A DNA stretch of 64,000 nucleotides, taken from Lachnospiraceae bacterium. GTDB taxonomy: Bacteria; Bacillota; Clostridia; Lachnospirales; Lachnospiraceae. The stretch is taken from positions 28,027 to 92,026 of the forward strand of contig JAGANL010000050.1 of assembly GCA_017624235.1 (NCBI GenBank). The letters run 5' to 3'. The notes beneath the pieces were generated by a model. It searched no databases and was not told the origin of the DNA. It worked only from the letters and a program-made list of their open reading frames with translations. The translations under genes were made by a program, and so were the position numbers. Every line of letters starts with the position of its first letter. Position 1 is the stretch's first letter. Below, piece by piece: positions 22,443 to 53,035 of this stretch.

Positions 22443-22720
22443 GTCCAGCCCATGCCGGGAACCGTCCTCCCTCCTGCGCTGCAAAGAAAATTTCGGGACA
22501 TACAGCAGGACTGAGCGTTTTCTTAATGGAGCATTCAACACACAGGGGAAAATCGGCACGGATGCCGATTTTAGGCGCCACGTGCAAGGATGCACATGGG
22601 CGCCGCCCCGAACGGCTGTCACATAGGCTTCTGCTCCATTTAGAAAACTCCAGTCCGAATGTCGTCCCCAAATTTTCTTTGCGGCGCAGGAGGGAGGACG
22701 GTTCCCGGCATGGGCCGGAC
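22443..22720 (+). repeat. Large palindromic element, copy 1
   Basis: Near-perfect inverted repeat: arms 22443-22500 and 22659-22720 (GCCCATGCCGGGAACCGTCC and its complement at the outside). Inside lie a proximal stem AATGGAGCA/TGCTCCATT flanked by GTTTTCT/AGAAAAC, hairpin A 22549-22572 (AAAATCGGCA/TGCCGATTTT) and hairpin B 22574-22604 (GGCGCC...GGCGCC with GTGCA/TGCAC). Starts 7 bases past the DHH gene stop. The core matches the copies at 30806 and 52736; the outer arms do not. Confidence 0.85.
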
Positions 22721-22726
22721 AGTTCC

Positions 22727-24238
22727 TTATGCTGGCTGAAACATTTTGGCAAATACATCCGCTTCCACCACGGAAACATCCTTCCGGTCATCTCCGCGGA
22801 CAATCAGATAATCCCCCGGTCTTCCCAGCATATATTTTTCCTCATCCCGCAGCGTAAAGACCTTGACTCTCCTGTCTAACCTTCGGGCATAGACAAACTC
22901 CTCGTCTATTGCCTCACATACCCCTGCATGCTCCAGCAAGAGCTTTATTTCTCCATTTAATTTGTTCTTTACAGTAGGTCTGTACTTTGCACGAAGAATA
23001 CATTCCTCCGCACAGAATTTCTGAGGCAACACACGATAAGAATTTTCAAATTTCTCCCTGCTGATCGTATACACTTCTCCCTTGACTCCAACCATGATAT
23101 ACATGTCCGGATCCACGGTCAGCTCCGTATCTCCCTCCAGGGTACGTATCGTAACCGGAGTTCCTGCCGGCAGAATATCCGTACTGTGTACATAGCCTAC
23201 CGGCAGATGACTGCTGCGGTAAAGCTGCATCTCTTCCAGATTCGTTTCATATTCCCGTGCATAAATAATGTCACAAAGATCAAAATATTCATTCATTTTC
23301 TGACTGAAATAAGCTTCCGAATGCAGGGTTGGATAGTATTCCTCATACAATCCCTTACTGATAAAACCTCCTGCCTTCTCCAGATGTCCTCCACCGGAAC
23401 CGACCTCAGCACATAAAAAGTTTGCCAGTTCACTGGCCTGAACCTCCTTTACACAGCTTCGTATCGACAGCTTATACCCCTCCTGTACCTCATTATATAC
23501 CACACAGGTACGAACCTCATCTACCTGAATGAGGAGGTCACTAATCAGACCCAGAATATTCGGATCACAGGGCTGGGAATGGATGATGGCATAATTATAA
23601 TCATCGTTGAAAATATAACGAATCATAGCAATACCGGCAATTTCCAGCTCCTTTAGAGAAAGATTGGAATTGCGGAAAATCGTAATCAGACTCTTCTGAT
23701 AGACAAGACTGTCCCTCATATCCATATCATGCGGATTGTAAATCTCCGCAAATTGATTCGTATCCGAATAAAGTCCATAGTACAGTGCTGTCCCAAGCTG
23801 CACATTATCCCCGATCCGGTATCCCTCTTCCCGAAGCATTTTCCAGACCAGAGTGGCACAGCTTCCCAGGCTCGGATCAATCCTGCTCAGTGCAATATCC
23901 TCTATTTCGATCTGGTGATGATCGATGATTGCTATATGTTCTGCCGGTATTCCGGTTACATTTCCTGCTCCGTACTGACAGTCCACAGTAATCAGCAGTC
24001 CTTTCTGGAAATCCACCGGCGGCTTTACATACTCAATCGGAATGTTCAGCTTTTCCACCATCAGGGTCAGATTTGTCTTCTGTATCTGATTTCTTCCGCT
24101 GTAAACAAAGCGGGTATCCTTTCCCTGATCCCGAAAATAGCAATAAAGCCCATATCCTGATGCCAGCGCATCTCCATCCGGATTATCATGACATTGAATC
24201 GTAATCGGATTGTAAATTTCTAAATCTTTTAACTGCAT
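22727..24238 (-). CDS. DHH-family phosphoesterase
   Basis: 503 residues. DHH domain: QCHDNPDGDALASG (motif I), LLITVDCQYGAG, AIIDHHQIEIED (the DHH motif) and an asymmetric SDTNQFAE; DHHA1-like glycine motif GSGGGHLEKAGGF at about residue 280. The remaining ~200 C-terminal residues are an extra domain with no recognised family. Members hydrolyse nano-RNAs or cyclic dinucleotides (NrnA, GdpP types). This protein has no membrane or PAS domains, so NrnA-like rather than GdpP-like, but longer than NrnA. GGAGG stands 7 bases before the ATG. It is downstream of a GGDEF-EAL gene (62-base gap with a terminator). Confidence 0.85.
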   Translation of the reverse strand: MQLKDLEIYNPITIQCHDNPDGDALASGYGLYCYFRDQGKDTRFVYSGRNQIQKTNLTLMVEKLNIPIEYVKPPVDFQKGLLITVDCQYGAGNVTGIPAEHIAIIDHHQIEIEDIALSRIDPSLGSCATLVWKMLREEGYRIGDNVQLGTALYYGLYSDTNQFAEIYNPHDMDMRDSLVYQKSLITIFRNSNLSLKELEIAGIAMIRYIFNDDYNYAIIHSQPCDPNILGLISDLLIQVDEVRTCVVYNEVQEGYKLSIRSCVKEVQASELANFLCAEVGSGGGHLEKAGGFISKGLYEEYYPTLHSEAYFSQKMNEYFDLCDIIYAREYETNLEEMQLYRSSHLPVGYVHSTDILPAGTPVTIRTLEGDTELTVDPDMYIMVGVKGEVYTISREKFENSYRVLPQKFCAEECILRAKYRPTVKNKLNGEIKLLLEHAGVCEAIDEEFVYARRLDRRVKVFTLRDEEKYMLGRPGDYLIVRGDDRKDVSVVEADVFAKMFQPA

Positions 24239-24265
24239 CGTACTTCCTCCATACAGACACCAAAA

Positions 24266-24291
24266 AGAGAACCCCTTAAACAGGATTCTCT
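24266..24291 (-). terminator. Terminator after the GGDEF-EAL gene
   Basis: AGAGAAtCC...GGggTTCTCT on the minus strand followed by TTTTTGG, 9 bases past the stop at 24300. Confidence 0.7.
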
Positions 24292-24299
24292 ACTTTGTT

Positions 24300-27011
24300 T
24301 CAAACAGTCTCCAGGATTTCCACGGCCTGCACATATTTTTTTTCAAAAGCATCCTGTGGCATGGGTCTGTCAAAATAATAGCCCTGTATCAGACTGACCT
24401 TCATTCCCTTTAATACCTTATACTGCTCCTCGCTCTCAATTCCTTCCACGCAGACATTCACCCCAATCGCATCTGCCAGCTCCGAAACCATCTTGATAAA
24501 GGACTGGGAATAGCTGTCCTTTGCCAGATCCTTCACAAAGCTCTGATCCACCTTGATCACATCCAGCGGCATTTCCCGGATATGATTTAAGGACGAATAA
24601 CCTGTTCCGAAATCATCCAGCGCAATGCGGGCTCCCAGCTTTTTAATATTTCCCAGAATCTCCTTCATCCGGTCCATATCGTTGATAGCCAGACTCTCGG
24701 TAACCTCCAAGGTCAGATTCCGGGGGGCGATTCCTGTCTCCCGAATCGTCTGTTCGATGATTTCCACAATATCCGGCTGCAGAAGCTGTACGACGGAAAG
24801 GTTCACATTGACCTTATAATTCGGCCTTCCGCTCTCATTCCACTTTCTGCAGGCCACACAAGCCTGCTTGAGCACATGATTGCCGATCGGATTGATCAGG
24901 CCCAGATATTCCGCTAACGGAATAAATTCCGCCGGCGAAATAAATCCCAGCTCCGCACTGTTCCACCGGATCAGAGCTTCCGCTCCGGTACACGGGGTGT
25001 CGGGCAGCCTGTTATCCACAATCGGCTGGAAATAAACCTCAAATTCCTTATACCCGTCCACCGTAGCATCGCGCATATTCTTTTCCATATCCAGACGCTT
25101 ATTCGAGCCGGATGCAATATTATCGGAATACTGGGTCATCCGGTTCTTGCCGCCGCGCTTTGCCTCATACATGGCAATGTCGGCCTTCTTGATCAGCTCC
25201 TGTACATTATCGCCTTCCGTCGGGAAATTGACTACGCCCATGCTCATGGTACAATAATAATCGGCATCCTTTAAAAACCATGGTCTGCCAAAAATATCCC
25301 TTATTTCATTGATAATCCTGTCAAACTTTTGAAAGCTTGCAGGAGGAATGATAATGACAAACTCATCTCCACCCATCCGGTAACAGGTATTATCGATTCC
25401 GTCTATTCTTTTCAGACTGTGTGAGATGGCTTTTAAGAGCACATCCCCATACTGATGCCCCAGGCCGTCATTGATGTGCTTGAAATCATCCAGATCCAGA
25501 TAGAGCAGCGCTCCCTCCGTACCATCCTTCTTTGCCTGATCAATATGCCATGCAAGATCCCGCTCACAGCACATACGGTTATATAAGCCGGTCAGGAAAT
25601 CCGTATAGGCCTGCTGCTCAATCTTTCTTTGATAAATCTTCTTATCCGTAATATCATAAATCGCATACAGGGCAGCTTTCCTGCCGTCCACCCATCGTAT
25701 GCCTGTATAATAAAGATCATACCAACGCTTTTTTTCCGTATGGCTGAACTCATAATTGCCATCGTTTCTGCCGGCCGAAGCACCTCTTTCCAGCAGAGCA
25801 TCCAGCGTACCATCTTTCAATTCCTTCTCAAAGGTTCTTTTCAGAATGCGGTTGCCAAATAAAAACCGACCAGTCTCCTCATCCTTGACATAAATGGCAC
25901 TGCCTACATGATCCAGAATATTTTCCAGTGTCTCATAGGAGCTGACCAGTGAATTTTTCTGAAGCCGTTTTGTAATAATGCTCTGCATAATCTTAACGAC
26001 ATCATTGACAAACCGAATCTCATCCACCTGCCATCGTCTTTCTGCTTTGCACTGGCAAAAGGACGCATACATGCTGACCGTATCATTGAGCCGTATCGGC
26101 ATGATAATCAGCGATTTTAAATGCATCCGCTTCATATATTCATTGTCAGCAGCCGAACATTCCGAAAGGGAGGAGATGACCAACGGCTTCTCTATCTCCA
26201 AAAGCTGTGGCTGATCCATTCCCCTTGTCTGGTCAAATACCGATGCAATACCATGATTGCACCACTCACCTACCAGATCAATGTATTTTCCCTGCTTATG
26301 CTTTCTGAAAATCTGACAGCTTGAAACCTCCAGATAACTGCCCGCCAGCTTCAGAATCTCCTGCAGGATTGCTTCTATGCCCTCGTCACTGTCCAAAAAC
26401 TGTACAATTTCCGTAAAGGTTTCAATCCTGCGCAGCGACTCGCTCATTTCCTGTTCTGAGGTTCTGTCCCGCTGCCATTCCTTTTCTGCTTCCATACTTT
26501 GAAGCTTCATCGAAAACAACTTTCTGCTGATGGTTCCAAGCAGCTCTAAGGAGCGATACATTCTGTTTTCTGTCGTAACCGTCTTCATCCCGGTAAGCTG
26601 ATGTTCCACAGCCCCTTCCTGCTCCGGAAACACAGCCAGAATAAACCAGCAGCAGAACACCCTGCCGGATACCCTCACCGCAAGCGCTGCCAGTCTCACA
26701 TTCTCATACTCCGTAGGCTCTACGATCTGCTCCTCCAGAGAACCCTCTTCCGAGACACGACGGAACATCGCGTCCATCCGCTCTGCGGATACACAGCCCT
26801 GAATCCGTTCTTTCTCTGTCTTTTCGCCTGACCACTCTGTAACAGGATGCCCCTTCTCATCCACACAAAGTGCAAATACATCTTCTGCCCTGCAGAACCG
26901 TTTCTGCAGCTGCTCCATGTCCCCCTTTTCCAGCAGTCCTTCCACGGCATGTTTCTCATCCCTGCCTGAATTTTCTCTTATTATACCCTGCACCTTATAG
27001 CCTCCACTCAT
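24300..27011 (-). CDS. GAF-PAS-GGDEF-EAL cyclic-di-GMP enzyme
   Basis: 903 residues, no membrane span. Order: N-terminal ~200 residues with CAEDVF-type sensory region, GAF-like domain about 205-345, PAS-like about 365-460 (YVKDEETGRFLFGN), GGDEF 470-630 with intact GGDEF at 547-551, and EAL 650-900 with E678-A-L, LDDFGTGYSS, DQSFVKD and CVEGIES. The allosteric RxxD site five residues before GGDEF is absent (GIDN). Both catalytic signatures look intact, so it may make and degrade cyclic di-GMP. Start ATG 27011 preferred over GTG 27014; AGGGAAG upstream. Confidence 0.9.
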   Translation of the reverse strand: MSGGYKVQGIIRENSGRDEKHAVEGLLEKGDMEQLQKRFCRAEDVFALCVDEKGHPVTEWSGEKTEKERIQGCVSAERMDAMFRRVSEEGSLEEQIVEPTEYENVRLAALAVRVSGRVFCCWFILAVFPEQEGAVEHQLTGMKTVTTENRMYRSLELLGTISRKLFSMKLQSMEAEKEWQRDRTSEQEMSESLRRIETFTEIVQFLDSDEGIEAILQEILKLAGSYLEVSSCQIFRKHKQGKYIDLVGEWCNHGIASVFDQTRGMDQPQLLEIEKPLVISSLSECSAADNEYMKRMHLKSLIIMPIRLNDTVSMYASFCQCKAERRWQVDEIRFVNDVVKIMQSIITKRLQKNSLVSSYETLENILDHVGSAIYVKDEETGRFLFGNRILKRTFEKELKDGTLDALLERGASAGRNDGNYEFSHTEKKRWYDLYYTGIRWVDGRKAALYAIYDITDKKIYQRKIEQQAYTDFLTGLYNRMCCERDLAWHIDQAKKDGTEGALLYLDLDDFKHINDGLGHQYGDVLLKAISHSLKRIDGIDNTCYRMGGDEFVIIIPPASFQKFDRIINEIRDIFGRPWFLKDADYYCTMSMGVVNFPTEGDNVQELIKKADIAMYEAKRGGKNRMTQYSDNIASGSNKRLDMEKNMRDATVDGYKEFEVYFQPIVDNRLPDTPCTGAEALIRWNSAELGFISPAEFIPLAEYLGLINPIGNHVLKQACVACRKWNESGRPNYKVNVNLSVVQLLQPDIVEIIEQTIRETGIAPRNLTLEVTESLAINDMDRMKEILGNIKKLGARIALDDFGTGYSSLNHIREMPLDVIKVDQSFVKDLAKDSYSQSFIKMVSELADAIGVNVCVEGIESEEQYKVLKGMKVSLIQGYYFDRPMPQDAFEKKYVQAVEILETV

Positions 27012-27104
27012 CACTCTTCCCTGAATGTATTTTGTACCATTATTTTACATGAAAAAATGCCACATTGCAACACTTCTTCCCCTGCCCGATACGGCTTGGA
27101 CTGC

Positions 27105-27134
27105 TTTACATATGCGGTGCAATTATGCTAGAAT
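27105..27134 (+). promoter_or_regulatory. Promoter for the DUF2142-like gene
   Basis: TTTACA (27105-27110), 18-base spacer, TAGAAT (27129-27134) with TG one base upstream; 48 bases before the start. Confidence 0.55.
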
Positions 27135-27181
27135 AAGTCCATTGAAGAAATTCAAAATAAGAGGAAAAGAGTAGAAATTTC

Positions 27182-28594
27182 ATGTATTTGAAGCTTATGA
27201 CCAACCAAAGAAGCTCCGAAAGAATCAAGGCATTTTTCTTTTATCTGACGCTGATTTTGTCGATGCTTTTTTTTGTATTCCTACAGCCGCTCGGAGAACC
27301 GCCGGATGAAAGCGGCCGCTATCTGATTGTACAGTATATCTGTCTGCACGGCACACTGCCCCACGGGGCAGACCCGGAAATTCTGCTGTTCGGCTACGGC
27401 GGCTCGTATGGCTTCCAGCCCATCCTGACCTATATCATTCAGGGATATCTGCTGCACTTTTTATTCCAGTTCTGCAAGGACGGTTATCTGCTGCTTCTGG
27501 CAGCCAGACTGGTCAATGTAGCCTTCGGCATCATCATGGCTGTTTATGTGCGGAAAACAGCAAAGCTTCTGTTTCAGGATACCAACTGGCAGTGGCTGTT
27601 CAGCATCCTTGTCATGTTCCTGCCGCAGAGTCTCTTCCTGCATACCTATGTCAACACGGATTCCATGGCCATGATGTCCACCGCCATGATGCTCTATGCC
27701 TGGATAAAGGGGTATCAGACACATTGGGACAGGACTTCCTGTATCACGCTGTCTGCCGGAATCTCCCTCTGTGCCCTCTCCTACTATAATGCGTACGGCT
27801 TCATCCTTTGCAGCATCCTGTTCTTTGTCTACACCTGGATCGAATCCGATCCTGTGACCGGGAAAAAACATATAAACTGGAAAGGGCTGTTTCGACGCGG
27901 ACTCTTCATCAGCGCCATCGTTCTGGTCTGCATCAGCTGGTGGTTCATCCGAAATGCCGTCCTGTACGACGGAGACTTTTTAGGGCTGTCTGCACGCGCA
28001 GAATGTACCCTGGAAACCGCTACGGAAAAATACCATCCGCTGACCAAGGAAACCTACTATAACACAGGCTTTTCTCTCTGGTACATGATTTTTAAAACCG
28101 ATTTTCTGGAGCTTCTGACAAACAGTACAATTGCCACCTTCGGGCCGATGAGTATTGTAACCTTCAAGCATATTTATACCGTCATCAAATGGCTGACCTT
28201 AATCAGCCTTGCAGGGCTGTTCCTTCCAAAAAGGTTCCGGGCAAGCTCTCCTTCCTGTGCGGAGCAGTTCCCTGCCGCAGACCGCAGAGCCTTATATGGG
28301 AACATGGTTTTGTGCATCCTCATTCCCATCGTGCTTTGTGTCGGCTACTCCTATCTGAGTGACTATCAGCCTCAGGGACGTTATATCCTGCCGATGCTGC
28401 TTCCGTTTGCATACTTTATGGCTCTTGGGCTCTCACGGATTGCAGGCTGCATCAAACATGCTGCCGCGGACCGCATCATCGTAGTATCTGTTATTGCATT
28501 TTACTTTTATGCGCTCTGGATTACGCTGTTTAAGGTGGTCTTTCCGGTTTATTATCCGACCTCCATCTTAAACTATATCCGCAATGTTTTGTAA
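27182..28594 (+). CDS. Polytopic membrane protein, DUF2142-like glycosyltransferase family
   Basis: 470 residues with ten or more membrane spans. PLGEPPDESGRYLIVQYICLHG just after the first span, and SDYQPQGRYILPML near the end, match the PPDE...H and YQ-RY patterns of DUF2142/GT-C proteins that handle lipid-linked sugars at the cell surface. Monocistronic, with its own promoter and a terminator at 28618. Sugar and acceptor unknown. Confidence 0.6.
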   Translation: MYLKLMTNQRSSERIKAFFFYLTLILSMLFFVFLQPLGEPPDESGRYLIVQYICLHGTLPHGADPEILLFGYGGSYGFQPILTYIIQGYLLHFLFQFCKDGYLLLLAARLVNVAFGIIMAVYVRKTAKLLFQDTNWQWLFSILVMFLPQSLFLHTYVNTDSMAMMSTAMMLYAWIKGYQTHWDRTSCITLSAGISLCALSYYNAYGFILCSILFFVYTWIESDPVTGKKHINWKGLFRRGLFISAIVLVCISWWFIRNAVLYDGDFLGLSARAECTLETATEKYHPLTKETYYNTGFSLWYMIFKTDFLELLTNSTIATFGPMSIVTFKHIYTVIKWLTLISLAGLFLPKRFRASSPSCAEQFPAADRRALYGNMVLCILIPIVLCVGYSYLSDYQPQGRYILPMLLPFAYFMALGLSRIAGCIKHAAADRIIVVSVIAFYFYALWITLFKVVFPVYYPTSILNYIRNVL

Positions 28595-28617
28595 TCTTTC
28601 GGCATCATTACAAAAAA

Positions 28618-28657
28618 GGCCGCCGCATCTTGGATTTTCATCTTTGATGCGACGGCC
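28618..28657. terminator. Bidirectional terminator between convergent genes
   Basis: GGCCGcCGCATC/GATGCGaCGGCC stem with TTTTATAT on the plus side and six T on the minus side; shared by the gene ending at 28594 and guaB. Confidence 0.85.
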
Positions 28658-28703
28658 TTTTATATGCTATTCACTCATGTCCAGCAGTCTGCTGCCACCT
28701 TTT

Positions 28704-30223
<1,520 letters not shown>

Positions 30224-30227
<4 letters not shown>

Positions 30228-30721
30228 TCCGTAAAAACCTTTCTTGGCGCTATGTTCTGAATGGCTTTGATCATCTGCGCATTCGGCTCAAAAATCACTT
30301 TTTTCTCGCCATTAAAATACATCACATATCTGGTATCCGGCTGATTTACCGTGCCTGTGCTGTAATCCACGGTCTTATAGCTTCTGTTCTTATATTCATC
30401 CAGACGCCAGGACGAAATCGGTGCAAGCACCTCCATACGCTCCAGATCAAATACATCTGCTTTCTTTCTTCTGCTCTTTGCCATCACCTTATCGATGGAT
30501 AACTGCCTGTCCACATACAGATATTCAAATTCCAAATCTGCATTCAAATATACGAAATAAGCTGCTGCACCACACAGCACCGCTGCAATGAGAAACGGAA
30601 GCAGCCCCATCAGCCCAAGCAGTCCCAGAATCACCGTAGCCCCGATTGTCACAATCCGCAGCACAGCCATTCCGATGGGTGTCTTTCTTTTAATCAATAC
30701 TTCTACATATGTGTCATTCAT
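30224..30721 (-). CDS. DUF6106-like membrane protein
   Basis: 165 residues. Two hydrophobic segments at about 15-55 form a hairpin (RIVTIGATVILGLLGLMGLL and FLIAAVLCGAAAYFVYL); the C-terminal part is a soluble, PH-like strand-rich domain (FEYLYVDRQLSIDKV, YVMYFNGEKKVIFEPN). It resembles DUF6106 of Lachnospiraceae. GGAGG 7 bases before the ATG at 30721 fixes the start. Promoter at 30755. Function unknown. Confidence 0.65.
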
Positions 30722-30754
30722 CCCTTTACCTCCACTTTTCGACATCTACTTTAT

Positions 30755-30783
30755 AATATAGTACAAAGTATTTGGTGTTGCAA
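30755..30783 (-). promoter_or_regulatory. Promoter of the DUF6106-like gene
   Basis: Minus-strand TTGCAA (30778-30783), 17-base spacer, TATATT (30755-30760). It lies immediately outside the palindrome that begins at 30806. Confidence 0.65.
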
Positions 30784-30805
30784 GACTGGGCGGATGGTTT
30801 CATGG

Positions 30806-31108
30806 AAATTTTATAGAAGGTCAGCCGTCCTGCCCCGTCTGCGCCCTCGCTGCTCCACAGCAAAAATCTGAATACGACATTCGGACTGGAGTTTTCTAAA
30901 TAGAGCACCCGAATTTTGGCATCCGTCCGGGGCGGCGTCCATGTGCATCCATGCACACGACGCCTAAAATCGGCATCCGTGCCGATTTTTCCCTGGGCTA
31001 TGAATGCTCTATTAAGAAAACGCACAGTCCTCCTGTAAGTATTCAGATTTTTGCTGTGGAGCAGCGAGGGCGCAGACGGGGCGGGACGGCTGACCTTCTA
31101 TAAAATTT
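30806..31108 (-). repeat. Large palindromic element, copy 2 (inverted)
   Basis: 303 bp; the outer arms (from 30806 and up to 31108) pair over roughly 70 bases almost without mismatch, starting AAATTTTATAGAAGG and its exact complement. The core is the reverse complement of the other copies: AATAGAGCA/TGCTCTATT stem, hairpin with AAAATCGGCA/TGCCGATTTT, and hairpin GGCGTC/GACGCC. It sits between the two divergent promoters at 30755-30783 and 31133-31161. Confidence 0.88.
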
Positions 31109-31132
31109 TAGAAATACTTTCTATTCTGTTTC

Positions 31133-31161
31133 TTGTTTTCTCCCTCTATCCACGTTATACT
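31133..31161 (+). promoter_or_regulatory. Promoter for the gene at 31217
   Basis: TTGTTT (31133-31138), 17-base spacer, TATACT (31156-31161), starting 24 bases outside the palindrome. Confidence 0.65.
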
Positions 31162-31216
31162 ATTTCTACAGCTTTACTATCTATGAGATTTACTCAAGAA
31201 AGGAATTTCACACACT

Positions 31217-31966: not shown

Positions 31967-32052
31967 AAATTTCCGGACATTGCTGCCGCTTTGGTCTTTC
32001 CCAACAGCGGAAGGGGTATCACCTTTGTGCATACAGCACTTTCACCGGATGC

Positions 32053-32733: not shown

Positions 32734-32763
32734 TTCATTTTCCTCCATTTCCGTCATGTGGCA

Positions 32764-32792
32764 TTGACTATCCTTGTCTTTCATTATAAAAT
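32764..32792 (+). promoter_or_regulatory. Promoter for the AraC-type gene at 32871
   Basis: TTGACT (32764-32769), 17-base spacer, TAAAAT (32787-32792). Confidence 0.5.
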
Positions 32793-32870
32793 TATTCAAA
32801 ACGTATTGCTATCATTTATATATACCGTACAAAATTGACAGAAAAAAAATCTTTAGAAGGTGAGAAAACC

Positions 32871-33749: not shown

Positions 33750-33757
33750 CTGTTTTA

Positions 33758-41072: not shown

Positions 41073-41078
41073 AAACGT

Positions 41079-42377: not shown

Positions 42378-42425
42378 CTTTGTTCTCCTTTTGTCCAATA
42401 CGTTGAAAACATCTGCTTTCACATA

Positions 42426-43280: not shown

Positions 43281-43369
43281 AATCGTCCCTCCTGTGTTTT
43301 CTAGGTACTTTGTTATCTATAGTATATACCGCATTATTTATTATATATTGTGATAAAATGCGATTTATA

Positions 43370-43398
43370 TTGCAAATACTGCTATCCTGAGATACTAT
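43370..43398 (+). promoter_or_regulatory. Promoter for the AraC-type gene at 43436
   Basis: TTGCAA (43370-43375), 17-base spacer, TACTAT (43393-43398). The AT-rich segment 43300-43370 beside it presumably holds the divergent dapF promoter (TATACT visible), without a clear -35. Confidence 0.6.
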
Positions 43399-43435
43399 TA
43401 GCTTATCACACATGTTTTCTAAAGGAGGCCAACGT

Positions 43436-44317: not shown

Positions 44318-44865
44318 CATACATTCATCATGGACAATACCATTTGGGCCGTCTCCACCATATTCGTACTGCTGTCCATACTGCATTTTTGTATGTATCT
44401 GTGAGCCTCTTCCTCTGTCATGTGGTTTCGCTCCATTAAAAGGTGTTTTGCCTCCTGAATCATGGCGACCTCTTCCGGCTTTCTTTCCCTTGGCTGTGCC
44501 CGCCGCAGCCTTTTGCGCCGTTCCATGGTCTCAACCATCATATTCACCGTATTGACCAGTTCATGTACCTTAAGCGGCATCGCAAGACTGACAATATTAC
44601 TGCCCTCGATTTCACTCAATATGCGTCCCGATGCCATAAGAAGCATCTCAAATCCTTCCGGCAGATATTCCCTTAATTCAGAATAGACCATATCCATCAG
44701 CTTATAGCTGCACAGCATGATTCCTCCTCCCAGTTCATCTGCTGCCGCTGCTGCTGCCGCTCCTGTCGTACAGATTGCTGAAACGGTAAAGCCACTTCGC
44801 ACCAATATGTTTTTTATACTTTTTGCATCCTCTTGTTTTGGAAAAGCTACTATAATTCCTGTCAT
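44314..44865 (-). CDS. ANTAR-domain response-regulator-like protein
   Basis: 183 residues. N-terminal receiver-like domain (IIVAFPKQEDAKSIKNILV...) that lacks the usual phospho-Asp context (CSYKLMDMV), followed by a C-terminal ANTAR helix set: RKPEEVAMIQEAKHLLMERN, MTEEEAHRYIQKCSMD and NMVETAQMVLSM. ANTAR proteins bind paired RNA hairpins and prevent termination in leaders of nitrogen genes. It follows glnA (73-base gap) in the same direction. ATG 44865 has GGTGAG upstream. It is a good candidate to act on the terminator in the glnA leader. Confidence 0.85.
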   Translation of the reverse strand: MTGIIVAFPKQEDAKSIKNILVRSGFTVSAICTTGAAAAAAADELGGGIMLCSYKLMDMVYSELREYLPEGFEMLLMASGRILSEIEGSNIVSLAMPLKVHELVNTVNMMVETMERRKRLRRAQPRERKPEEVAMIQEAKHLLMERNHMTEEEAHRYIQKCSMDSSTNMVETAQMVLSMMNVC

Positions 44866-44938
44866 GCGTCTCACCGTCCCGTAGCCTGATTGAATCCTGT
44901 CACCGGCCCTTTTGCACTGCTATATGCACATAAAGCTT

Positions 44939-46270
44939 TTATACACGATACAGATATTTCTCGATTTCCCACTCACTCACCTGTGCACGGTACTCCTGCC
45001 ACTCATGCTTCTTCACCTCAATGTATTTCTCGGAAACATGTCTGCCCAGTACATCCTTTACCAATTCATCCTTTTCCAGAGCGTCAATTGCCTCAATCAG
45101 CGTTCCCGGCAATGCCGTAATGGATGCCTGGCTTTTCTCTTCCTCGGACATCTCAAAAATATTTTGATTGACCTCAGCCGGAGGCTCAATCTGATTGCGG
45201 ATACCGTCCAGACCTGCCTTTAAGCAGACTGCCAGCGCAAGATACGGATTGGCAGAGGAATCCGGACTTCTCAATTCAATTCTGGTTCCTTCCCCTCTGA
45301 CTGCCGGCACACGGATCAGCGGACTTCGGTTGATCGTACTCCATGCAATATGTACAGGCGCCTCAAAGCCCGGCACCAGACGCTTATAGGAATTGACGAC
45401 CGGATTTAAAATGGCAGTCATACCCTGCATATGCTTAATGAGTCCTCCGATAAACCAATAAGCCTCCTTACTCAGTCCGAGTACATCCTGACTGTCATTG
45501 AAGATATTTTTTCCGTTTTTGGAAAGAGACATATTGATGTGCATACCGGAACCATTCACTCCAACCTTCGGCTTCGGCATAAAGGTTGCATGCAGGCCAT
45601 GACGCTTTGCAATCGTCTTGACTGCCAGCTTGAAGGTCATGATATTATCGGCTGTCCTAAGTGCCTCATCATATTTAAAATCAATCTCATGCTGTGCCGG
45701 TGCCGACTCATGGTGGGAAGCCTCAATCACAAACCCCATCTCCTCCAGAGTCAGTACGATGTCACGTCTCGCATTCTCTCCAAAATCAATCGGGCCCAGA
45801 TCAAAATAGCCTGCCTGCTCATTGGTCACGGTCGTCGGCAGTCCGTTCTCATCCGTCTGGAACAGGAAAAATTCACACTCCGGCCCCACGTCAAAGCTGT
45901 AGCCCATCTGTTCCGCTTCCTCCAATGCCTGCTTTAATACATAACGCGGATCTCCCTCAAACGGAGTTCCGTCCACCCGGTACACATCGCAGAACATTCT
46001 GGCCACCTTTCCCTGCTGCGGCCTCCACGGAAAGATTTCAAACGTATTGATGTCCGGATACAGACACATATCCGATTCTTCAATCCTGGCAAAGCCTTTG
46101 ATCGAAGATCCGTCAAACATACACTCATTATTCAACGCCTTCTCCAGCTGACTGGATGTGATGGCCACATTCTTCAGATTTCCCAGAATATCCGTGAACT
46201 GAAGCCGGATAAATTCCACATCCTCTTCCCTCACCAGATTCATGATATCCTTCTTTGTATAATTTTTCAT
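44939..46270 (-). CDS. glnA: Glutamine synthetase, type I (GSI-alpha-like)
   Basis: 443 residues, the Bacillus-like size. [36 protein letters not shown], the [17 protein letters not shown] segment, [15 protein letters not shown] and NRSPLIRVP are typical; the adenylylation loop tyrosine of GSI-beta is not present. Makes glutamine from glutamate and ammonia with ATP. GGAGG is 4 bases before the ATG. The leader carries a terminator (46327) close to the promoter, and the next gene is an ANTAR regulator. Confidence 0.96.
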
Positions 46271-46326
46271 TTTTCCTCCATTCCGCTGAATGACAGCTTC
46301 CTTTTACCCCTGTTTATATAAAAAAA

Positions 46327-46355
46327 GCGCTCCTACCCCTTGGGTAAGAACGTCT
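46327..46355 (-). terminator. Terminator in the glnA leader
   Basis: Minus-strand stem GACGTTCTTACCC/GGGGTAGGAGCGC with imperfect pairing and a small loop, followed by seven T, about 57 bases before glnA and only some 10 bases after the predicted transcription start. Candidate attenuator acted on by the ANTAR protein. Confidence 0.6.
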
Positions 46356-46367
46356 TCGTCCGCTATT

Positions 46368-46396
46368 ATCTTAAAACGTGTTTGTGCGTTTGTCAA
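46368..46396 (-). promoter_or_regulatory. glnA promoter
   Basis: Minus-strand TTGACA (46391-46396), 17-base spacer, TAAGAT (46368-46373). Confidence 0.7.
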
Positions 46397-46509
46397 TACA
46401 AAATGTGCAGTGAAACCGTCCCTCCTTCCTGTTCACCACCTAAAATACGAATATCCCCGCCCCACGTTTCATAAAATGTAAAAACGAAAAAGGGAACGGA
46501 GATATTGCC

Positions 46510-46962
46510 ATGCGTTCAAAAACAAAAATTGTTGTCCTGCACTTAAAGGAACTCATCTATACCGGCATCTTTGCAGTCCTGGGCATCCTGTTTGTCGTGC
46601 TGCTCATCATCATGTTCCTGCCCGGAGACAAAAAGGATACCGAAGAAGAAGCCGCTATGGCCAGCGCTTATGTGCCCGGCATTTACACCACCTCTCTGTC
46701 ACTTGGTGACAACACTGTGGACATCGAGGTTGTCGTAGACGAAAATAATATCAATTCCATCCGTCTGGTCAATTTAAGCGAAGCTGTCACCACCATGTAT
46801 CCGCTGATTGAACCGTCCTTTCAGGATTTGATCGGTCAGATACTGGAGAAACAGAGCTTAGAGGATATTTCCTATTCCGATGATAACAAATATACCTCCA
46901 TGGTACTGTTAAATGCCATTGAAACCTCTCTGGACAAAGCTGCCGTCCCGGCCTCTGAATGA
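46510..46962 (+). CDS. Small membrane-anchored protein, unknown
   Basis: 150 residues. N-terminal basic MRSKTKIVVLHLKELIYTG then a single span (IFAVLGILFVVLLIIMFL), and a ~100-residue outer domain with YVPGIYTTSLSLGDNTVDIE and NKYTSMVLLNAIETSLDKA. ACGGAG is 8 bases before the ATG. The strand pattern recalls FMN-binding-type small domains, but no Thr flavinylation motif is seen. Function unknown. Confidence 0.65.
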   Translation: MRSKTKIVVLHLKELIYTGIFAVLGILFVVLLIIMFLPGDKKDTEEEAAMASAYVPGIYTTSLSLGDNTVDIEVVVDENNINSIRLVNLSEAVTTMYPLIEPSFQDLIGQILEKQSLEDISYSDDNKYTSMVLLNAIETSLDKAAVPASE

Positions 46963-47005
46963 TTCGATGAAACCATACTCTACCGCATGTCGCCATGGCC
47001 AGTGC

Positions 47006-48919
47006 CTATAATCTGTCTATTTCAGCCATCCACAGTGCAGCGCTGGCATCTGACGGCATTCTTAAGTCTCCTCTCGGAGATACCGCAACGCTTCCCACCT
47101 TCGGCCCGTCTGGCAGACAGGAGCGCTTAAACTGCTGTGCAAAGAAACGTCTGTAGAACACCCTGATCCACTTACGGATCGTTTCTTCATCATACTGTCC
47201 TGCAAAGGCTTCTTTGGCAATACGGAATACCTTAGACGGTTCAAAACCGCAGCGCAGCATATAGTAAAGGAAAAAGTCATGCAGCTCATACGGGCCCACC
47301 AGATCCTCCGTCTTCTGGGAAATCACCCCGTCTACCGGAGGCAGCAGCTCCGGGCTCACCGGAGTATCCAGCACATCCAAAAGCACACTCTTTAATTCCT
47401 CGCTTCCACAAGTATCCGCATAATACCGAACCAGATGGCGCACCAGTGTTTTCGGCACACCTACATTCACTCCATACATGGACATGTGGTCACCGTTATA
47501 GGTTGCCCAACCGAGCGCCAGCTCCGACATATCTCCCGTTCCGATGACAAGTCCCGCCTCTTTGTTCGCAATGTCCATGATGACCTGTGTCCGCTCTCTT
47601 GCCTGTCCGTTCTCATAAGTCACATCATGGTTTTCCATATCCTGTCCAATATCCTGAAAATGTCTCGTCACGGATTCCTTAATATCCACTTCCATCAGAG
47701 TCATACCAAGCGTTTCTGCCAGCTTGCACGCATTGGCATATGTCCTGCCTGTCGTACCAAAGCAGGGCATCGTCACTGACAGGATATCCTTCCTGTCCTT
47801 GCCGATCAGGTCAAACGCTTTTGCCGTCACCAGAAGAGCCAGTGTCGAATCCAGTCCACCGGAAATACCGATGACCGCCGTCCTGCTGCCGGTATGCTCA
47901 TAACGCTTTTTCAGTCCGTATGCCTGAATGGAAAGTATCTCCTCACAGCGCCTGTTCCGTTCTGTCAGGTCAGACGGTACAAACGGCATCGGATTGAAGG
48001 TACGTTCCAGTCTGGTTTCCTCCTGTTGAAGTTCAAATGGAATCACCAGATAAAAATCCTCATCCCCCGGCTGGCAGAAGGTCGTCATACGCCTTCTCTC
48101 CATCTGCAGCCTGTGGACATCAATATCCGCATAGACCGTATCACTCACAAAACGCTTTGCTTCCTTTAGGATCGTACCGTTTTCCGCAATGATATTGTGG
48201 GCTCCAAACACCAGATCCTGTGAGGATTCTCCTTCTCCGGCACTGGTATAGACATAGGCACATAAAAGTCTTGCGCTTGCTGCAGTCACCAGCATATCAC
48301 GGTACTTGTCCTTGCCAATCGTTTCATTGGATGCCGACAGATTGACGATGACCGTCGCCCCGGCCAGAGCATGCGCGGTACTGGGTGGATTCGGAGTCCA
48401 GAAATCCTCACAAATCTCACAGCCGACCGTCAGTCCCTCCATTCCGTCTGCCTCAAATAAAATATTGGTTCCAAAGGGCACCTCCTCCCCATCGAACCAG
48501 ACCTGCTCCAATTCTCTCTTTCCCGGTGAAAAATATCTTGCTTCATAAAATTCCGCATAATTCGGAATATAGGTTTTGGGAATAAAAGCGAGCACCTCTC
48601 CATCCTGAAGGGCAGCAGCCACATTGTACAGCTTATGGTCTTTTTCAAGCGGAAGGCCGACAAAAACGAGCGCATCATTCCCTTTTGTGCTGTCTGCAAT
48701 GCGCTTTAACTGTTCTTTCGCACCGTGCAGCAAAAGCTCCTGCAAAAATAAGTCATTACACGTATATCCGGTCAGACACAGCTCCGGGAATACGATCAGC
48801 TTTGCACCCTGCTCCAGTGCTTCCTCCATTCGTTCTATAATCTGTCCGGCATTGTACTCCGGGTCTGCCACCCTGATTTTTGGCGTAACCGCAGCCACTT
48901 TTACAAATCCATGTCTCAC
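47006..48919 (-). CDS. nadE: Glutamine-dependent NAD(+) synthetase
   Basis: 637 residues: N-terminal nitrilase-type glutaminase (about 1-270; KLIVFPELCLTGYTCNDLF with Glu, later LTVGCEICEDFW with Cys) fused to the ATP-dependent synthetase domain (GISGGLDSTLALLVTAKA, P-loop, then GTGDMSELALGWATYNGDHM). Amidates deamido-NAD using ammonia from Gln. Start is GTG at 48919, 9 bases after AGGAA; a longer frame upstream overlaps hslO. Follows hslO by 26 bases. Confidence 0.95.
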   Translation of the reverse strand: MRHGFVKVAAVTPKIRVADPEYNAGQIIERMEEALEQGAKLIVFPELCLTGYTCNDLFLQELLLHGAKEQLKRIADSTKGNDALVFVGLPLEKDHKLYNVAAALQDGEVLAFIPKTYIPNYAEFYEARYFSPGKRELEQVWFDGEEVPFGTNILFEADGMEGLTVGCEICEDFWTPNPPSTAHALAGATVIVNLSASNETIGKDKYRDMLVTAASARLLCAYVYTSAGEGESSQDLVFGAHNIIAENGTILKEAKRFVSDTVYADIDVHRLQMERRRMTTFCQPGDEDFYLVIPFELQQEETRLERTFNPMPFVPSDLTERNRRCEEILSIQAYGLKKRYEHTGSRTAVIGISGGLDSTLALLVTAKAFDLIGKDRKDILSVTMPCFGTTGRTYANACKLAETLGMTLMEVDIKESVTRHFQDIGQDMENHDVTYENGQARERTQVIMDIANKEAGLVIGTGDMSELALGWATYNGDHMSMYGVNVGVPKTLVRHLVRYYADTCGSEELKSVLLDVLDTPVSPELLPPVDGVISQKTEDLVGPYELHDFFLYYMLRCGFEPSKVFRIAKEAFAGQYDEETIRKWIRVFYRRFFAQQFKRSCLPDGPKVGSVAVSPRGDLRMPSDASAALWMAEIDRL

Positions 48920-48945
48920 TTTTCCACGTTCCTTTCCGCTCTGCC

Positions 48946-49827
48946 CTATCTGACCCCTCCGGCCAGAATGTCCTTTAATTCCTCTACCGTAAAAATATAT
49001 CTGGTATTGCAGAAATCGCATTTCACTTCAATTTCTTTTCCGTCATCAATCATTTCCTGCAAATCCTTTTTTCCGATTCCGGCAAGTGCTTTTTCCACTC
49101 TCGCCTTATCACAGTTGCAGTAATATTCGACCGGCATGGTATCGAGTATCTCCACTCCCAAATCTCCTAACAACAGATTGACGATCTGCTCCGGCGTATT
49201 GCCTGCTTCCAGCATAGCGGTCACAGAGGAAATCTCAGCCAGTTTTTTCTCCAGCGCCGAAATCACAGTTTCCTCCGCAAACGGCATCAGCTGTATGATA
49301 AATCCTCCCGCCTGCTTTACCGTATTATTGCGCTCCATCAAAACACCCAATCCTACTGCGGACGGCACCTGCTCAGAGGTGGCAAAATAATAGGTCAGGT
49401 CCTCTGCAATCTCACCGGTCTGCAATATAGTCTGTCCCACATACGGCTCTTTTAACCCCATATCCTTGATAACACTGAGCATTCCCTGTCCGACGGCTCC
49501 GCCCACATCCAGCTTACCGGCTGCATTCGCCGGCAAAATGACCTGCGGCTCATAAGCATAGCCCTTTACTCTCGCCTGTGCATCGGCAGTCACCGTCATA
49601 CCGCGCATCGGGCCATCTCCTTTGACCTGCAAAGTCAATATATCCTTTTCCCCTTTTAACATGCTGCCCATCATAGCTCCCGCTGTCAGAAGCCGTCCCA
49701 GAGCAGCCGTTACGACCGGGCTCGTATCATGCTTTTGTCTTGCATTCTCCACCGTCTCCCGCGTTGTCGCCGCAAAGATGCGAATCTGGGCATCTGCCGC
49801 CGTCGCACGCACTAAATAATCCTTCAT
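48946..49827 (-). CDS. hslO: Hsp33 redox-regulated chaperone
   Basis: 293 residues. N-terminal Hsp33 fold (LGRLLTAGAMMGSMLKG, RGMTVTADAQARVKGYA, GGAVGQGMLSVIKDMG), C-terminal zinc-switch with YYCNCDKARVEKAL and VKCDFCNTRYIF (CxC and CxxC). Active as holdase when oxidised. AAGGAG precedes the ATG; only 2 bases separate it from the methyltransferase stop upstream, so they are probably translated together. Confidence 0.96.
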   Translation of the reverse strand: MKDYLVRATAADAQIRIFAATTRETVENARQKHDTSPVVTAALGRLLTAGAMMGSMLKGEKDILTLQVKGDGPMRGMTVTADAQARVKGYAYEPQVILPANAAGKLDVGGAVGQGMLSVIKDMGLKEPYVGQTILQTGEIAEDLTYYFATSEQVPSAVGLGVLMERNNTVKQAGGFIIQLMPFAEETVISALEKKLAEISSVTAMLEAGNTPEQIVNLLLGDLGVEILDTMPVEYYCNCDKARVEKALAGIGKKDLQEMIDDGKEIEVKCDFCNTRYIFTVEELKDILAGGVR

Positions 49828-49829
49828 CT

Positions 49830-50654
49830 CTATCGTTTCTCCTTCTGCACTTCTCTTGCTACTACATAGATTCTTTCACTTTCCGCCGTGACCGCATCAT
49901 GCGTATCCGCATCGATGGCCGTGACAAATTCCATCCCTGCCTCCTCCACCAGCCTGCGCATCACCGAAAGGGTATAACCTCTCTGATAGTGTGTCTCTTC
50001 AAATCGCCGGAACAGTCCGCCTTCCTCTTTGACAAAAATGGTCAGATCATATTCGTTGACCTGCTCCTCCTCATGGTAATAGTTTTCCCAGATAAAGCTA
50101 CACTCTTCCCGATTTTCGGCAATCGTCGTGTTACCAATGACCTGTTCATATTTATAGACCGTATTAAAATCAAACAGAAAAACCCCGCCCGGATAAAGAT
50201 AGTTGTTCACCAGCCGGAAGGTCTTTAATAAGTCCTCTTCCTCCAGCAGATAATTCAGGGAATCACAGACGCTGAGTATGGTTCCTGCCGTACAATACAG
50301 TTCCATCTCCCGCATATCCTGCATCAGATAAAGAATATCCAGTCCATCCCTGTCCCGCTTCTCCATGGCGATGGCAAGCATCTCCTCTGAATTGTCGATG
50401 CCGACCATATCGTAGCCCTTCCTCGCAAGCAGCTCTGTCAGCGTTCCCGTTCCGCAGCCCAAATCCACCACAAGATCCCGCTCACTACGGAGCGCTTCCC
50501 CTTCACTGTCCATTTTGGCATCTGCGCTTCGCTCTCCCGGCCTGGACACTCCGTATTTTTCCACTAAAAAGGACAAATACTCCGCCCAATCCTGGTACGG
50601 AGTCTCATCCATGAAAATATCATATACACTTGCAAAATCGGTGTATGCTTCCAT
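49830..50654 (-). CDS. Class I SAM-dependent methyltransferase
   Basis: 274 residues. N-terminal YTDFASVYDIFMDETPYQDW, SAM-binding motif I VVDLGCGTGTLTELLARKG, MVGIDNSEEML, and ILSVCDSLNYLLEEEDL with a later GGVFLFDFN. The arrangement is common in Firmicutes next to hslO. Substrate unknown (small molecule or a protein side chain). GGAAGAGGAA directly before the ATG. Confidence 0.85.
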   Translation of the reverse strand: MEAYTDFASVYDIFMDETPYQDWAEYLSFLVEKYGVSRPGERSADAKMDSEGEALRSERDLVVDLGCGTGTLTELLARKGYDMVGIDNSEEMLAIAMEKRDRDGLDILYLMQDMREMELYCTAGTILSVCDSLNYLLEEEDLLKTFRLVNNYLYPGGVFLFDFNTVYKYEQVIGNTTIAENREECSFIWENYYHEEEQVNEYDLTIFVKEEGGLFRRFEETHYQRGYTLSVMRRLVEEAGMEFVTAIDADTHDAVTAESERIYVVAREVQKEKR

Positions 50655-50689
50655 TTCCTCTTCCTCTTATGAGTATCTTTTTACCGAAT

Positions 50690-51535
50690 CTATTCACCCA
50701 GCTTCATCGCAATGAAAAATCCGCCTGCAAAAGCAATCACACTGCTGAGAACAGAAAGCACCGTAATCGTTCCAAAAGTGCTCATCAGAAGGATCGCAAC
50801 AGGAGATGCTACAATCAATCCGATAATTGCCCAGTAAGCATAAAGCGGAAACTTTTCAAAAATAACCTCAATCGCCTTGGCAATCGCAAAGATACCGACT
50901 ACCACCCCAATGCCAAACGGCGTCAGCACTCCCACACCCTGCAGGATACCAGCCATATCAAAGGCTACCAACGCCTTGATAAAATCGTTGATTGTTGCCA
51001 GAATCGGATTATAATAGCCAAGCAGAAGCAAAATCATAGAACCGCTGACACCCGGTACAATCATGGTAGCCGAGGTTATCATGCCGATGAAAAACAGCTT
51101 GATAATGGAAATCAGGCTCAGTGATAAATCCGCTGCGTTTCCTTCCGTCTCGCCCAGAGCCGCCATGCCGACTACCAGTGCAAAAAATGCCAGAAATGCG
51201 ATGATATGTCCTGCCTGTATTTTCGTACCCTTCACCTTCTTGCCAATGGCCGGAAGTCCTCCCACGATCAAACCAATAAACAACAGATTGGTTGGAAGCG
51301 GATAATTCTCAAACAAAAACTCAATCACAAAGGATAACCCTACCAGCGCAATGCCTGCTCCAAGAAAAATCGGAATGAGGAATTTCAGGCTCTTCTGAAA
51401 CTCCGAAAATAAATGTGTCACACAATGGATCAAGGTATCATAAATACCCATGGACACCGCCATAGTTCCGCCACTGACACCCGGTATGATATTGGCCACA
51501 CCGATGACCATACCCTTTAAAATATTTTTTAACAT
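50690..51535 (-). CDS. popT: DUF368 membrane protein, PopT-like undecaprenyl-phosphate translocase
   Basis: 281 residues, about eight spans. The double motif IIPGVSGGTMAVSMGIYD near the N-terminus and MIVPGVSGSMILLLLGYY in the middle is the DUF368 signature. Some DUF368 proteins have been shown to recycle undecaprenyl phosphate across the membrane (PopT). AGGAAAG precedes the ATG; hisC ends 14 bases upstream. The symbol is by family only. Confidence 0.85.
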   Translation of the reverse strand: MLKNILKGMVIGVANIIPGVSGGTMAVSMGIYDTLIHCVTHLFSEFQKSLKFLIPIFLGAGIALVGLSFVIEFLFENYPLPTNLLFIGLIVGGLPAIGKKVKGTKIQAGHIIAFLAFFALVVGMAALGETEGNAADLSLSLISIIKLFFIGMITSATMIVPGVSGSMILLLLGYYNPILATINDFIKALVAFDMAGILQGVGVLTPFGIGVVVGIFAIAKAIEVIFEKFPLYAYWAIIGLIVASPVAILLMSTFGTITVLSVLSSVIAFAGGFFIAMKLGE

Positions 51536-51549
51536 ACTCTTTCCTACCT

Positions 51550-52608
51550 CTATCTTTCTTTCAAATACTCCCCAAGGAATGCAAGCACCCGATCCATTTC
51601 CTCGTCGGTTCCGATGGAAATGCGCAGATAGTTGTCAATCCCCGGCTTGTTGAAATGTCGGACATAAATATCCTGTTCCTTTAATGTCTCATAAATTTCC
51701 CGTGCCGGCTTCGTCTTGTGCGTGGCAAAGATAAAATTCGTATAAGAATCCGGGAAAGTGAAGCCAAGCCCGGAAAGCTCCTTTTTCACACGCTCTCTCG
51801 TCTTGATCATTTTCTCCAGGGTTGCCTTAAAATAAGCGTCATCCTTTACCGCTTCCACACCACAGACAATGGACGGCAGATTCATCGTATAGGAATTAAA
51901 GGAGAATTTTACATCATTCAAAAGCTTCATCAGCTTCTCATTTCCGATGGCAAAGCCGATACGCATACCCGCCATGGCTCTGGACTTGGAAAATGTACGG
52001 ACAATGAGCAGATTATCATATTTTTCCAGTAACGGCAATGCTGTCTCACCGCCGAAATCGACATAAGCCTCATCCACGATGACTACCGAATCCGGATTGG
52101 CGGAAACAATCTCCTCTACCACATCCAGAGACTCAAACACTCCTGTCGGTGCATTCGGATTCGGGAAAATGATACCTCCGTTTTTCTTTTTATAATCTTC
52201 TGCATGGATACGAAAATCCTCATGCAGCGGAATCACCTCATACGGGATTCGGTACAAATCAGCCCATACATCATAAAACGAATATGTAATATCCGGGAAT
52301 AAAATCGGCTCGCTTCCATGAAAGAAGGTCAGAAAAGCCATCGCTATGACATCGTCCGAGCCAACCCCCACAAAGACCTGCTTTTCACTCACGCCGTAAT
52401 AATCTGCCAGTGCCTTCACTAACGGTGCCGCTGTCGTATCCGGATACAGCCTGATTTTTGAAATATCCAGTTCTGCCAGCACCTTCTGAATCCCCGGTGC
52501 CGGAGGGTAGGGACACTCATTTGTATTGATCTTAATCATACCTGCCTTATTCGGCTGATCGCCCGGCGTATACGGAACGACCTTTCTGACATTCTTCTCC
52601 CAACTCAT
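51550..52608 (-). CDS. hisC: Histidinol-phosphate aminotransferase
   Basis: 352 residues. INTNECPYPPAPGI, FVGVGSDDVIAMAFLTFFH, FPNPNAPTGVFE and the PLP lysine in VRTFSKSRAMAGMRIGFA; FIFATH with C-terminal LRISIGT. Fold type I aminotransferase of histidine synthesis; no other his genes are here, so an aromatic aminotransferase role is possible. AAAGGA is 11 bases before the ATG; promoter at 52680. Confidence 0.88.
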   Translation of the reverse strand: MSWEKNVRKVVPYTPGDQPNKAGMIKINTNECPYPPAPGIQKVLAELDISKIRLYPDTTAAPLVKALADYYGVSEKQVFVGVGSDDVIAMAFLTFFHGSEPILFPDITYSFYDVWADLYRIPYEVIPLHEDFRIHAEDYKKKNGGIIFPNPNAPTGVFESLDVVEEIVSANPDSVVIVDEAYVDFGGETALPLLEKYDNLLIVRTFSKSRAMAGMRIGFAIGNEKLMKLLNDVKFSFNSYTMNLPSIVCGVEAVKDDAYFKATLEKMIKTRERVKKELSGLGFTFPDSYTNFIFATHKTKPAREIYETLKEQDIYVRHFNKPGIDNYLRISIGTDEEMDRVLAFLGEYLKER

Positions 52609-52679
52609 ACTACGAAACGTCCTTTCACTTCATTCCTCTTCATGCTCTCTTCACGCATGACCAGTAACTTTTTCACCTT

Positions 52680-52708
52680 ACTTTACCAGAGATTGACCGG
52701 AAATGCAA
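52680..52708 (-). promoter_or_regulatory. hisC promoter
   Basis: Minus-strand TTGCAT (52703-52708), 17-base spacer, TAAAGT (52680-52685), starting 28 bases outside the palindrome of copy 3. Confidence 0.55.
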
Positions 52709-52735
52709 CGTTTGGACTGTTAATATTTCTTAGCG

Positions 52736-53035
52736 GGGAATCTGTCCGGTTTGTGCCAGCTACCGTCCTGACGGCCCTGTGCCGCAGCTGAAATCCGAAT
52801 ACTTACAGACGAACTGTGCGTTTTCTTAATAGAGCATTTAGAAAAAGCAGGGAAAAATCGGCACGGATGCCGATTTTAGGCGTCATGTGCAGGGACGCAC
52901 ATGGACGCCGGCCCGAACGGCTTCCAATATCCTGCTGCTCTATTTAGAAAACACCAGTCCGTCTGTCGCATTCGGATTTCTGCTGCGGTACAGAGCCGGG
53001 CAGAACGGTAGCTGGCACGAACCGGGCAGATTCCC
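52736..53035 (+). repeat. Large palindromic element, copy 3
   Basis: 300 bp. Arms start GGGAATCTGTCCGGTTTGTG and end with an imperfect complement near 53035; differences between the arms are mostly G-U-tolerant. Core in the same orientation as copy 1: GTTTTCT/AGAAAAC, AATAGAGCA/TGCTCTATT, hairpin AAAAATCGGCA/TGCCGATTTT, hairpin GGCGTC/GACGCC. Ends 13 bases short of the acyltransferase stop at 53049. Confidence 0.87.

Follow-up and report, generated by a model that had tools for sequence, protein, structure and literature searches.

The RNAs CsrB, CsrC and RsmX/Y/Z carry hairpins with a GGA in the loop and gather many such sites in one or two genes. Another family, TwoAYGGAY (RF01731), is held in Rfam as an RNA of unknown function typed Cis-reg; in the available part of the report by its discoverers it is rated as probably not cis-regulatory (PMC2864571), and CsrA binding has already been proposed for it in the accessible portion of a study by Gardner and Eldai (PMC4333381), CsrA being described in excerpts of a further source as a dimer that binds GGA hairpins in pairs (PMC4383904). 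Here, we analysed three elements carrying this RNA in a stretch of 64,000 nucleotides (the window) from a Lachnospiraceae bacterium (GenBank assembly GCA_017624235.1, contig JAGANL010000050.1, positions 28,027 to 92,026), together with related copies in other genomes. Like the CsrB-type RNAs, they have hairpins with GGA in the loop, but each of their many dispersed copies presents two putative sites on a single long stem. They match the Rfam model over its full length, with two hairpins on one stem, but the model stops at 168 positions whereas the arms of the source-genome copies continue for 48-80 bp further (35 copies), and their loops read ANGGAN, with any of the four bases in second position, instead of the AYGGAY that gave the family its name. 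The reading that we prefer, with a probability of about 0.6, is that these elements are non-autonomous mobile units of about 300 bp, similar to miniature inverted-repeat transposable elements (MITEs), that carry the TwoAYGGAY RNA as a CsrA decoy. The family itself is known; what is new is its reading as a structured RNA on MITE-like elements whose stems are probably kept paired by two means at once. The literature that we searched, which left most subscription journals outside and was partly accessible as text, yielded no report of TwoAYGGAY being repeated or mobile.

All three window copies are full-length RF01731 matches (79.5-87 bits, for a gathering score of 43) and have a common shape over their approximately 300 nt, a single long stem topped by two hairpins, in which a core of about 165 nt holds a conserved inner stem and the two hairpins (Table 1). 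RNA folding energies were -193.7, -217.7 and -199.1 kcal/mol for copies 1, 2 and 3 (z-scores of -18.9, -24.2 and -19.1), and none of the 200, 100 and 200 dinucleotide shuffles, respectively, folded equally well. An initial annotation, made from the letters of the window, had placed these palindromes to within 1-2 bases and had described their fold correctly, and the compensatory changes that it named are present. It had underestimated the outer arms (35-45 bases, compared to 57-71 bases measured outside the core) and had called them unrelated between copies: they are indeed far more divergent than the core, but a faint relation is left, with 5' arms 63-67% identical in pairwise comparisons, values equalled by 22, 29 and 6 of 500 shuffles. 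No transposase was identified, and the long open reading frames that cross an element, such as 22366-22803 and 22526-22879, do so by chance as far as visible. Its comparison with a T-shaped viral inverted terminal repeat holds for the shape only: the copies stand singly between ordinary genes and not at element ends, and a viral terminus was set aside on that ground, no search for a Rep gene having been made.

The dispersed family that had been proposed from three copies turned out to comprise 37 RF01731 matches, 36 of them above the cut-off, in the source genome (G000, 2.33 Mb, 80% complete), compared to two in the sole congener compared (G001). In 35 of these copies, after omission of one at a contig end (L026) and a partial one (L037), both sides change in 16 of 39 core pairs, a number that none of 500 shuffles reached, showing that the core covaries. 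Matches were found in 39 of 250 genomes of a family sample (37 above the cut-off) and in 51 of 398 genomes of a phylum sample (34 above the cut-off); these runs scored 10 and 6 candidates per genome, respectively, so that copy numbers are minimum values and some genomes without a match may have been missed. The nine genomes of the genus g87 had 31, 3, 16, 24, 5, 29, 4, 26 and 0 matches. Among the named relatives listed for one window protein, those ranking best come mostly from Lachnospiraceae.

Five source-genome copies were queried against the congener, and both flanks could be aligned for three of them (window copy 2, C2:19883 and C2:21216; window copy 1 was among the other two). The three sites were all empty in the congener, with neither arm present, and the alignments broke off where the arms end or no more than some tens of bases away. 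Since the arms are absent from the empty sites, they belong to the unit, which comes or goes whole, and a copying of the arms from the target was rejected.

In G177, a genome of a related genus, this core is bordered by an 18-bp end, GATTCGGGTGTCAAAAGG, which has 44 forward and 46 reverse matches with at most 3 mismatches, compared to 3 and 0 for the reversed pattern. At 20 hand-picked loci of that genome (15 long ones of about 310 bp and 5 shorter forms of 73-159 bp with the same ends), the 8-bp sequences outside the ends were exact duplications at 7 loci, had at most one mismatch at 10 and at most two at 15, whereas cross-locus comparisons gave 36/380 and 85/380 at these last two thresholds and none of 10,000 permutations was as good. 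The target sites were alike, resembling CCTATAAG. While the terminal inverted repeat is the 18-bp end in G177, it consists of the arms themselves in the source genome. The elements thus share with bacterial MITEs their short length, the lack of a long gene and, in G177, terminal inverted repeats, 8-bp target duplications and shorter forms with the same ends; they differ from them by a covarying structured RNA core that is common across genera while the ends differ from genus to genus.

The arms of the 35 source-genome copies are almost entirely paired: 2167 of 2250 arm pairs (96%) are Watson-Crick, 40 are G-U, 28 A-C and 15 of other kinds; gaps occupy 5 positions, and 6 copies are free of mismatches. 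Each 5' arm matched its own 3' arm with a median of 0.968, compared to 0.641 for the 3' arm of another copy (best 0.831) and 0.456 for shuffled arms; between copies, median identity was 0.81 for cores and 0.64 for 5' arms. The arms therefore vary much more than the cores, yet they are not random with respect to each other. Shorter arms were measured in other genera (median of 34.5 bp for the 40 of 48 copies from other genomes that could be anchored); as 8 copies had no anchor and two had arms of only 1 and 3 bp, some copies outside the source genome have weak or no core-adjacent arms by that method.

How the arms change over time could be followed in genus g87, where most loci are common to three genomes (G087, G253 and G255), for the most part with an identity of about 85-97%. 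Orthologous pairs were filtered for cores of at least 0.90 and arms of at least 0.85 identity, which bars fast-changing arms from the counts; in the 51 pairs retained, arms were 0.86-1.00 identical, so that they appear mostly stable between close species. Among the arm changes, collapsed by script into 91 events, G-U outnumbered A-C by 33 to 8 (p 1e-4), which indicates selection for RNA pairing. Together with the covariation of the core, this lends some support to the first of two proposals of the initial annotation, a structured element whose fold is maintained by selection. Twelve of the 16 collapsed double changes were unreachable through G-U, and several were adjacent (-1/-2, -8/-9, -16/-17). 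According to the accessible part of a study of rRNA stems by Monttinen and Loytynoja (2022, PMC8794818), 61% of double changes there are reachable through G-U and 39% are not, and a rate of 61% was rejected for the g87 arms (p 0.004). Adjacent doubles that skip G-U are predicted by template switching between the arms. The same pairing-preserving doubles without a G-U step characterise the template-switch hairpin evolution described, as far as available, in that study, which deals with rRNA genes, as opposed to the much longer stems of a repeated element found here. Two doubles corresponded to an unpaired state in the third genome, so that not every double need be a single step.

The filter removed four more pairs, which lie at three loci where a flank is conserved and represent exchanged elements. 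At the first locus (L194_2530 in G087 and L226_2563 in G255), flanks were 0.94 and 0.93, the core 0.83 and the arms 0.56 identical; the change probably took place on the G255 side, since the stem of the more distant G251 resembles that of G087, and in G253 the middle of a copy pair was lost by deletion at an apparent GCACCG repeat. At the second (L190_8831 and L230_2544), flanks were 0.85 and 0.78, the core 0.72 and the arms 0.57 and 0.54 identical, and at the third (L189_3218 and L212_2581 in G253), the core was 0.97, the arms 0.63 and the 3' flank 0.92 identical, with an unconserved 5' flank. The differing cores at the first two loci point to another copy rather than to new arms on an old core. 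Such exchanges could be explained by repeated insertion at a preferred site or by tandem pairs from which different members were lost.

Concerning CsrA, we counted A(N)GGAN loops (AGGAN allowed) on stems of at least 3 bp in 156 distinct cores: two were found in 122 cores, one in 29 and none in 5, the two hairpin loops being 27-31 nt apart, and GGA was present in 274 loops compared to 22 for the next triplet, CGA. In the source genome, 32 of 35 copies had two such loops and 3 had one. A stricter count (ANGGAN on a 4-bp stem) gave both loops in 74/156 cores, and a free hairpin search, which often picked the second hairpin wrongly, gave GGA in both picked hairpins in 82/156. In the family sample, csrA was present in 38 of the 39 genomes with the element, the exception being G169, and in 90 of the 211 without it (Fisher 1e-11), in a tally made by eye from two lists in which 126 of 128 csrA matches were above the cut-off. 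The source genome has a single csrA match, which is divergent. We take CsrA binding by the hairpins to be likely.

The preferred reading, MITE-like units carrying a CsrA decoy, starts from family membership, dispersal, the presence or absence of units together with their arms, the ends and duplications of G177 and the covariation of the core, all of which are observed, and proposes how they would fit together. In a transcribed copy, whatever its site of insertion, the long arms would pair into one stem that holds up the two hairpins at a spacing of 27-31 nt. Their ANGGA loops may then occupy both binding sites of a CsrA dimer; many copies together would titrate CsrA. Arm pairing would matter in such an RNA, while arm sequence would matter little. 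Pairing would be kept by selection at the RNA level, tolerating G-U and not A-C, and template switching between the arms during DNA replication would rewrite both sides of adjacent pairs at once; because both processes would act together, the arms of different copies could drift apart while each copy still pairs. More tentatively, and with the odds somewhat against it, TwoAYGGAY might be the payload of a widespread MITE-like family that spreads CsrA decoys through its phylum, with copy number setting free CsrA, cores passing between sets of ends and stems being renewed in blocks by template switching. If this was the case, mobile elements would tune a global regulator through their copy number (0 to 31 matches in one genus), which would link a mobile element to CsrA and give an orphan Rfam family a testable identity. 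Dozens of natural stems of several time depths would also make slow G-U compensation and one-step template switching measurable, and copy-number differences between close species would, as a natural experiment, show the effect of protein-decoy dosage.

Several observations weigh against the preferred reading. The empty sites fit a gain in the source genome or a loss in the congener alike. A repeat of score at least 7 flanked 6 of the 35 source-genome copies, as in 5.75% of the null, with no consistent duplication, as if the insertions there were older, and a common end motif was seen in only 10 of the 35. The MITE end was absent from the single IS256-type (Transposase_mut) locus of each of G177 and G123, other transposase families not having been searched. 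In the source-genome arms, the G-U to A-C ratio was 40:28 (p 0.18), and it was 52:38 (p 0.17) in the arms from other genomes in the same run; as the G-U excess is insignificant in these sets, it is only the comparison of g87 orthologues that clearly shows selection on the arms at the RNA level. As for CsrA, the four copies examined in G009 (of 7 matches) and the sole copy of G097 have no GGA loop, although csrA is present in both genomes; the conservation of the loops is in part a matter of data selection, since the model used to collect the cores takes its name from AYGGAY loops; and the csrA correlation, which rests on a run scoring 10 candidates per genome, ignores phylogeny and motility.

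Some of these points would suit a purely selfish DNA palindrome, a MITE without RNA function whose arms pair through template switching or because a transposase needs long inverted repeats. The terminal repeats and target duplications of G177 would be expected of it, as would the lack of a clear G-U excess in the source-genome arms, the double changes that skip G-U and the G009 copies without GGA loops. We nevertheless consider it unlikely: the inner core is far better conserved than the arms between copies, it covaries and it mostly keeps its GGA loops, and the orthologous arms favour G-U over A-C.

A cis-regulatory RNA that controls the adjacent gene appears less likely still. The Rfam type speaks for it, and 14 of the 29 copies of G087 have a sense gene on their 3' side, at a median of 89 nt from the core, with a ribosome site and a start codon visibly following some of them. 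The other 15 copies of that genome have an antisense gene there, however, and in the source genome the 3' gene was sense for 21 of 35 copies, antisense for 12 and not found for 2 (these counts rest on home-made gene calls). The neighbours of the window copies are unrelated to each other: a Glu/Gln-tRNA ligase, a DHH protein, an aminotransferase, an acyltransferase and two weak matches, one DUF6106-like and the other a possible solute-binding protein, both below the Pfam cut-off. Copies thus keep no constant position and orientation to related genes, and this lack of an orientation rule argues against a cis-acting switch and for a trans-acting RNA or a passenger.

The second proposal of the initial annotation was a mobile hairpin whose arms are rewritten during copying. 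Its mobile part agrees with the 37 and 2 matches of the two congeners, the empty sites and the ends and target duplications of G177; the rewriting of arms at each insertion, in which either the target or the other arm would serve as template for one arm, finds no support in the form given and seems very improbable, since neither arm is left in empty sites, the 51 orthologous pairs keep their arms and the core also differs at two of the three exchanged loci, even if some g87 copies combine near-identical cores with different arms (in part of the comparison) and the exchanges at three loci included both arms. A better fit is offered by blockwise template switching and by the exchange of whole elements while the site stays fixed. 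Integron attC sites, which had come into question only through the variability and pairing of the arms, were dismissed on the GTT...AAC order seen in g87, the order in attC sites being the opposite, a judgement made without an attC tool.

Table 1. Positions of the three TwoAYGGAY elements and of their parts in the window
Feature	Position	Strand	Remarks
Copy 1, whole element	22443..22720	+	arms about 58 bp each side of RF01731 core
Copy 1, RF01731 core	22501..22663	+	80.7 bits
Copy 1, conserved inner stem, 5' side	22517..22533	+	partner 22632-22648
Copy 1, conserved inner stem, 3' side	22632..22648	+	partner 22517-22533
Copy 1, hairpin A	22549..22572	+	loop ACGGAT (CsrA-type ANGGA)
Copy 1, hairpin B	22574..22604	+	loop AAGGAT (ANGGA)
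Copy 2, whole element	30806..31108	-	arms about 70 bp; site empty in congener G001
Copy 2, RF01731 core	30876..31037	-	87 bits
Copy 2, hairpin A	30966..30989	-	loop ACGGAT
Copy 2, hairpin B	30934..30964	-	loop ATGGAT
Copy 3, whole element	52736..53035	+	arms about 67 bp
Copy 3, RF01731 core	52803..52968	+	79.5 bits
Copy 3, hairpin A	52854..52877	+	loop ACGGAT
Copy 3, hairpin B	52879..52909	+	loop AGGGAC

Several candidates for a mobiliser or for a recent insertion were considered and rejected. A sequence near an IS256-type gene of G177, GGTGTCAAAA, lies inside an apparent pentapeptide-repeat frame and was taken as a chance match, and the transposase at L129, which we take to be IS1182-like, seems to have jumped into an element and not to be the parent of that element. 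A small integrase gene beside one element of G043 was also discarded, the element being above the gathering score at only 1 of 16 integrase-csrA loci. Among candidate insertions in g87, L196 compared to L225 looks like a deletion between short repeats, arm pieces remain in the comparison of L195 with L218, and the difference between L190 and L214 includes flanking DNA, so that none of the three is a clean empty site. Several insertions of G177 (L138, L142, L146-L149, L155 and L156) have a similar 25-nt flank, resembling AGCGTGACAAGGTCTTTCCTATAAG, on one of their two sides, as if the target itself was a repeat.

The integrase-csrA loci (L041:783-1824 in G000, L103:1477-2718 in G043, and L354-L371) display an arrangement of their own. 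Of 18 hand-picked csrA loci, 9 of the 18 being no more than about 1.5 kb away from the end of a contig, 16 combine a divergent CsrA paralogue (124 and 95 aa in the two cases read) with a small phage integrase family recombinase (193 and 194 aa, PF00589) in head-to-head orientation. This pair resembles a phase-variable or mobile csrA module, and it was found in 7 of the 39 family-sample genomes with TwoAYGGAY and in 6 of the 211 without (p 0.001, tallied by eye).

Neighbouring copies show a preferred orientation. Of 25 pairs of adjacent copies less than 800 bp apart at G087, G253 and G255 loci, 24 were minus-plus, one was minus-minus and none was plus-minus; these counts include orthologous, non-independent loci, and G087 alone gave 9/9. 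Such head-to-head pairs (L187-L233 in g87, and L085, L086, L087 and L089) may possibly share a divergent promoter. Tandem copies in the same orientation were seen in G255 (L228, 2563- and 2791-) and in G167 (54401+ and 54705+). On the 3' side of the core, 19 of 80 g87 copies (L187-L237) had an ACGTCC motif at a distance of up to 60 nt, compared to 0 of 80 at 200-260 nt. Finally, the window contains a Group II intron match (RF00029, 47.9 bits) on the minus strand at 63047-63117.

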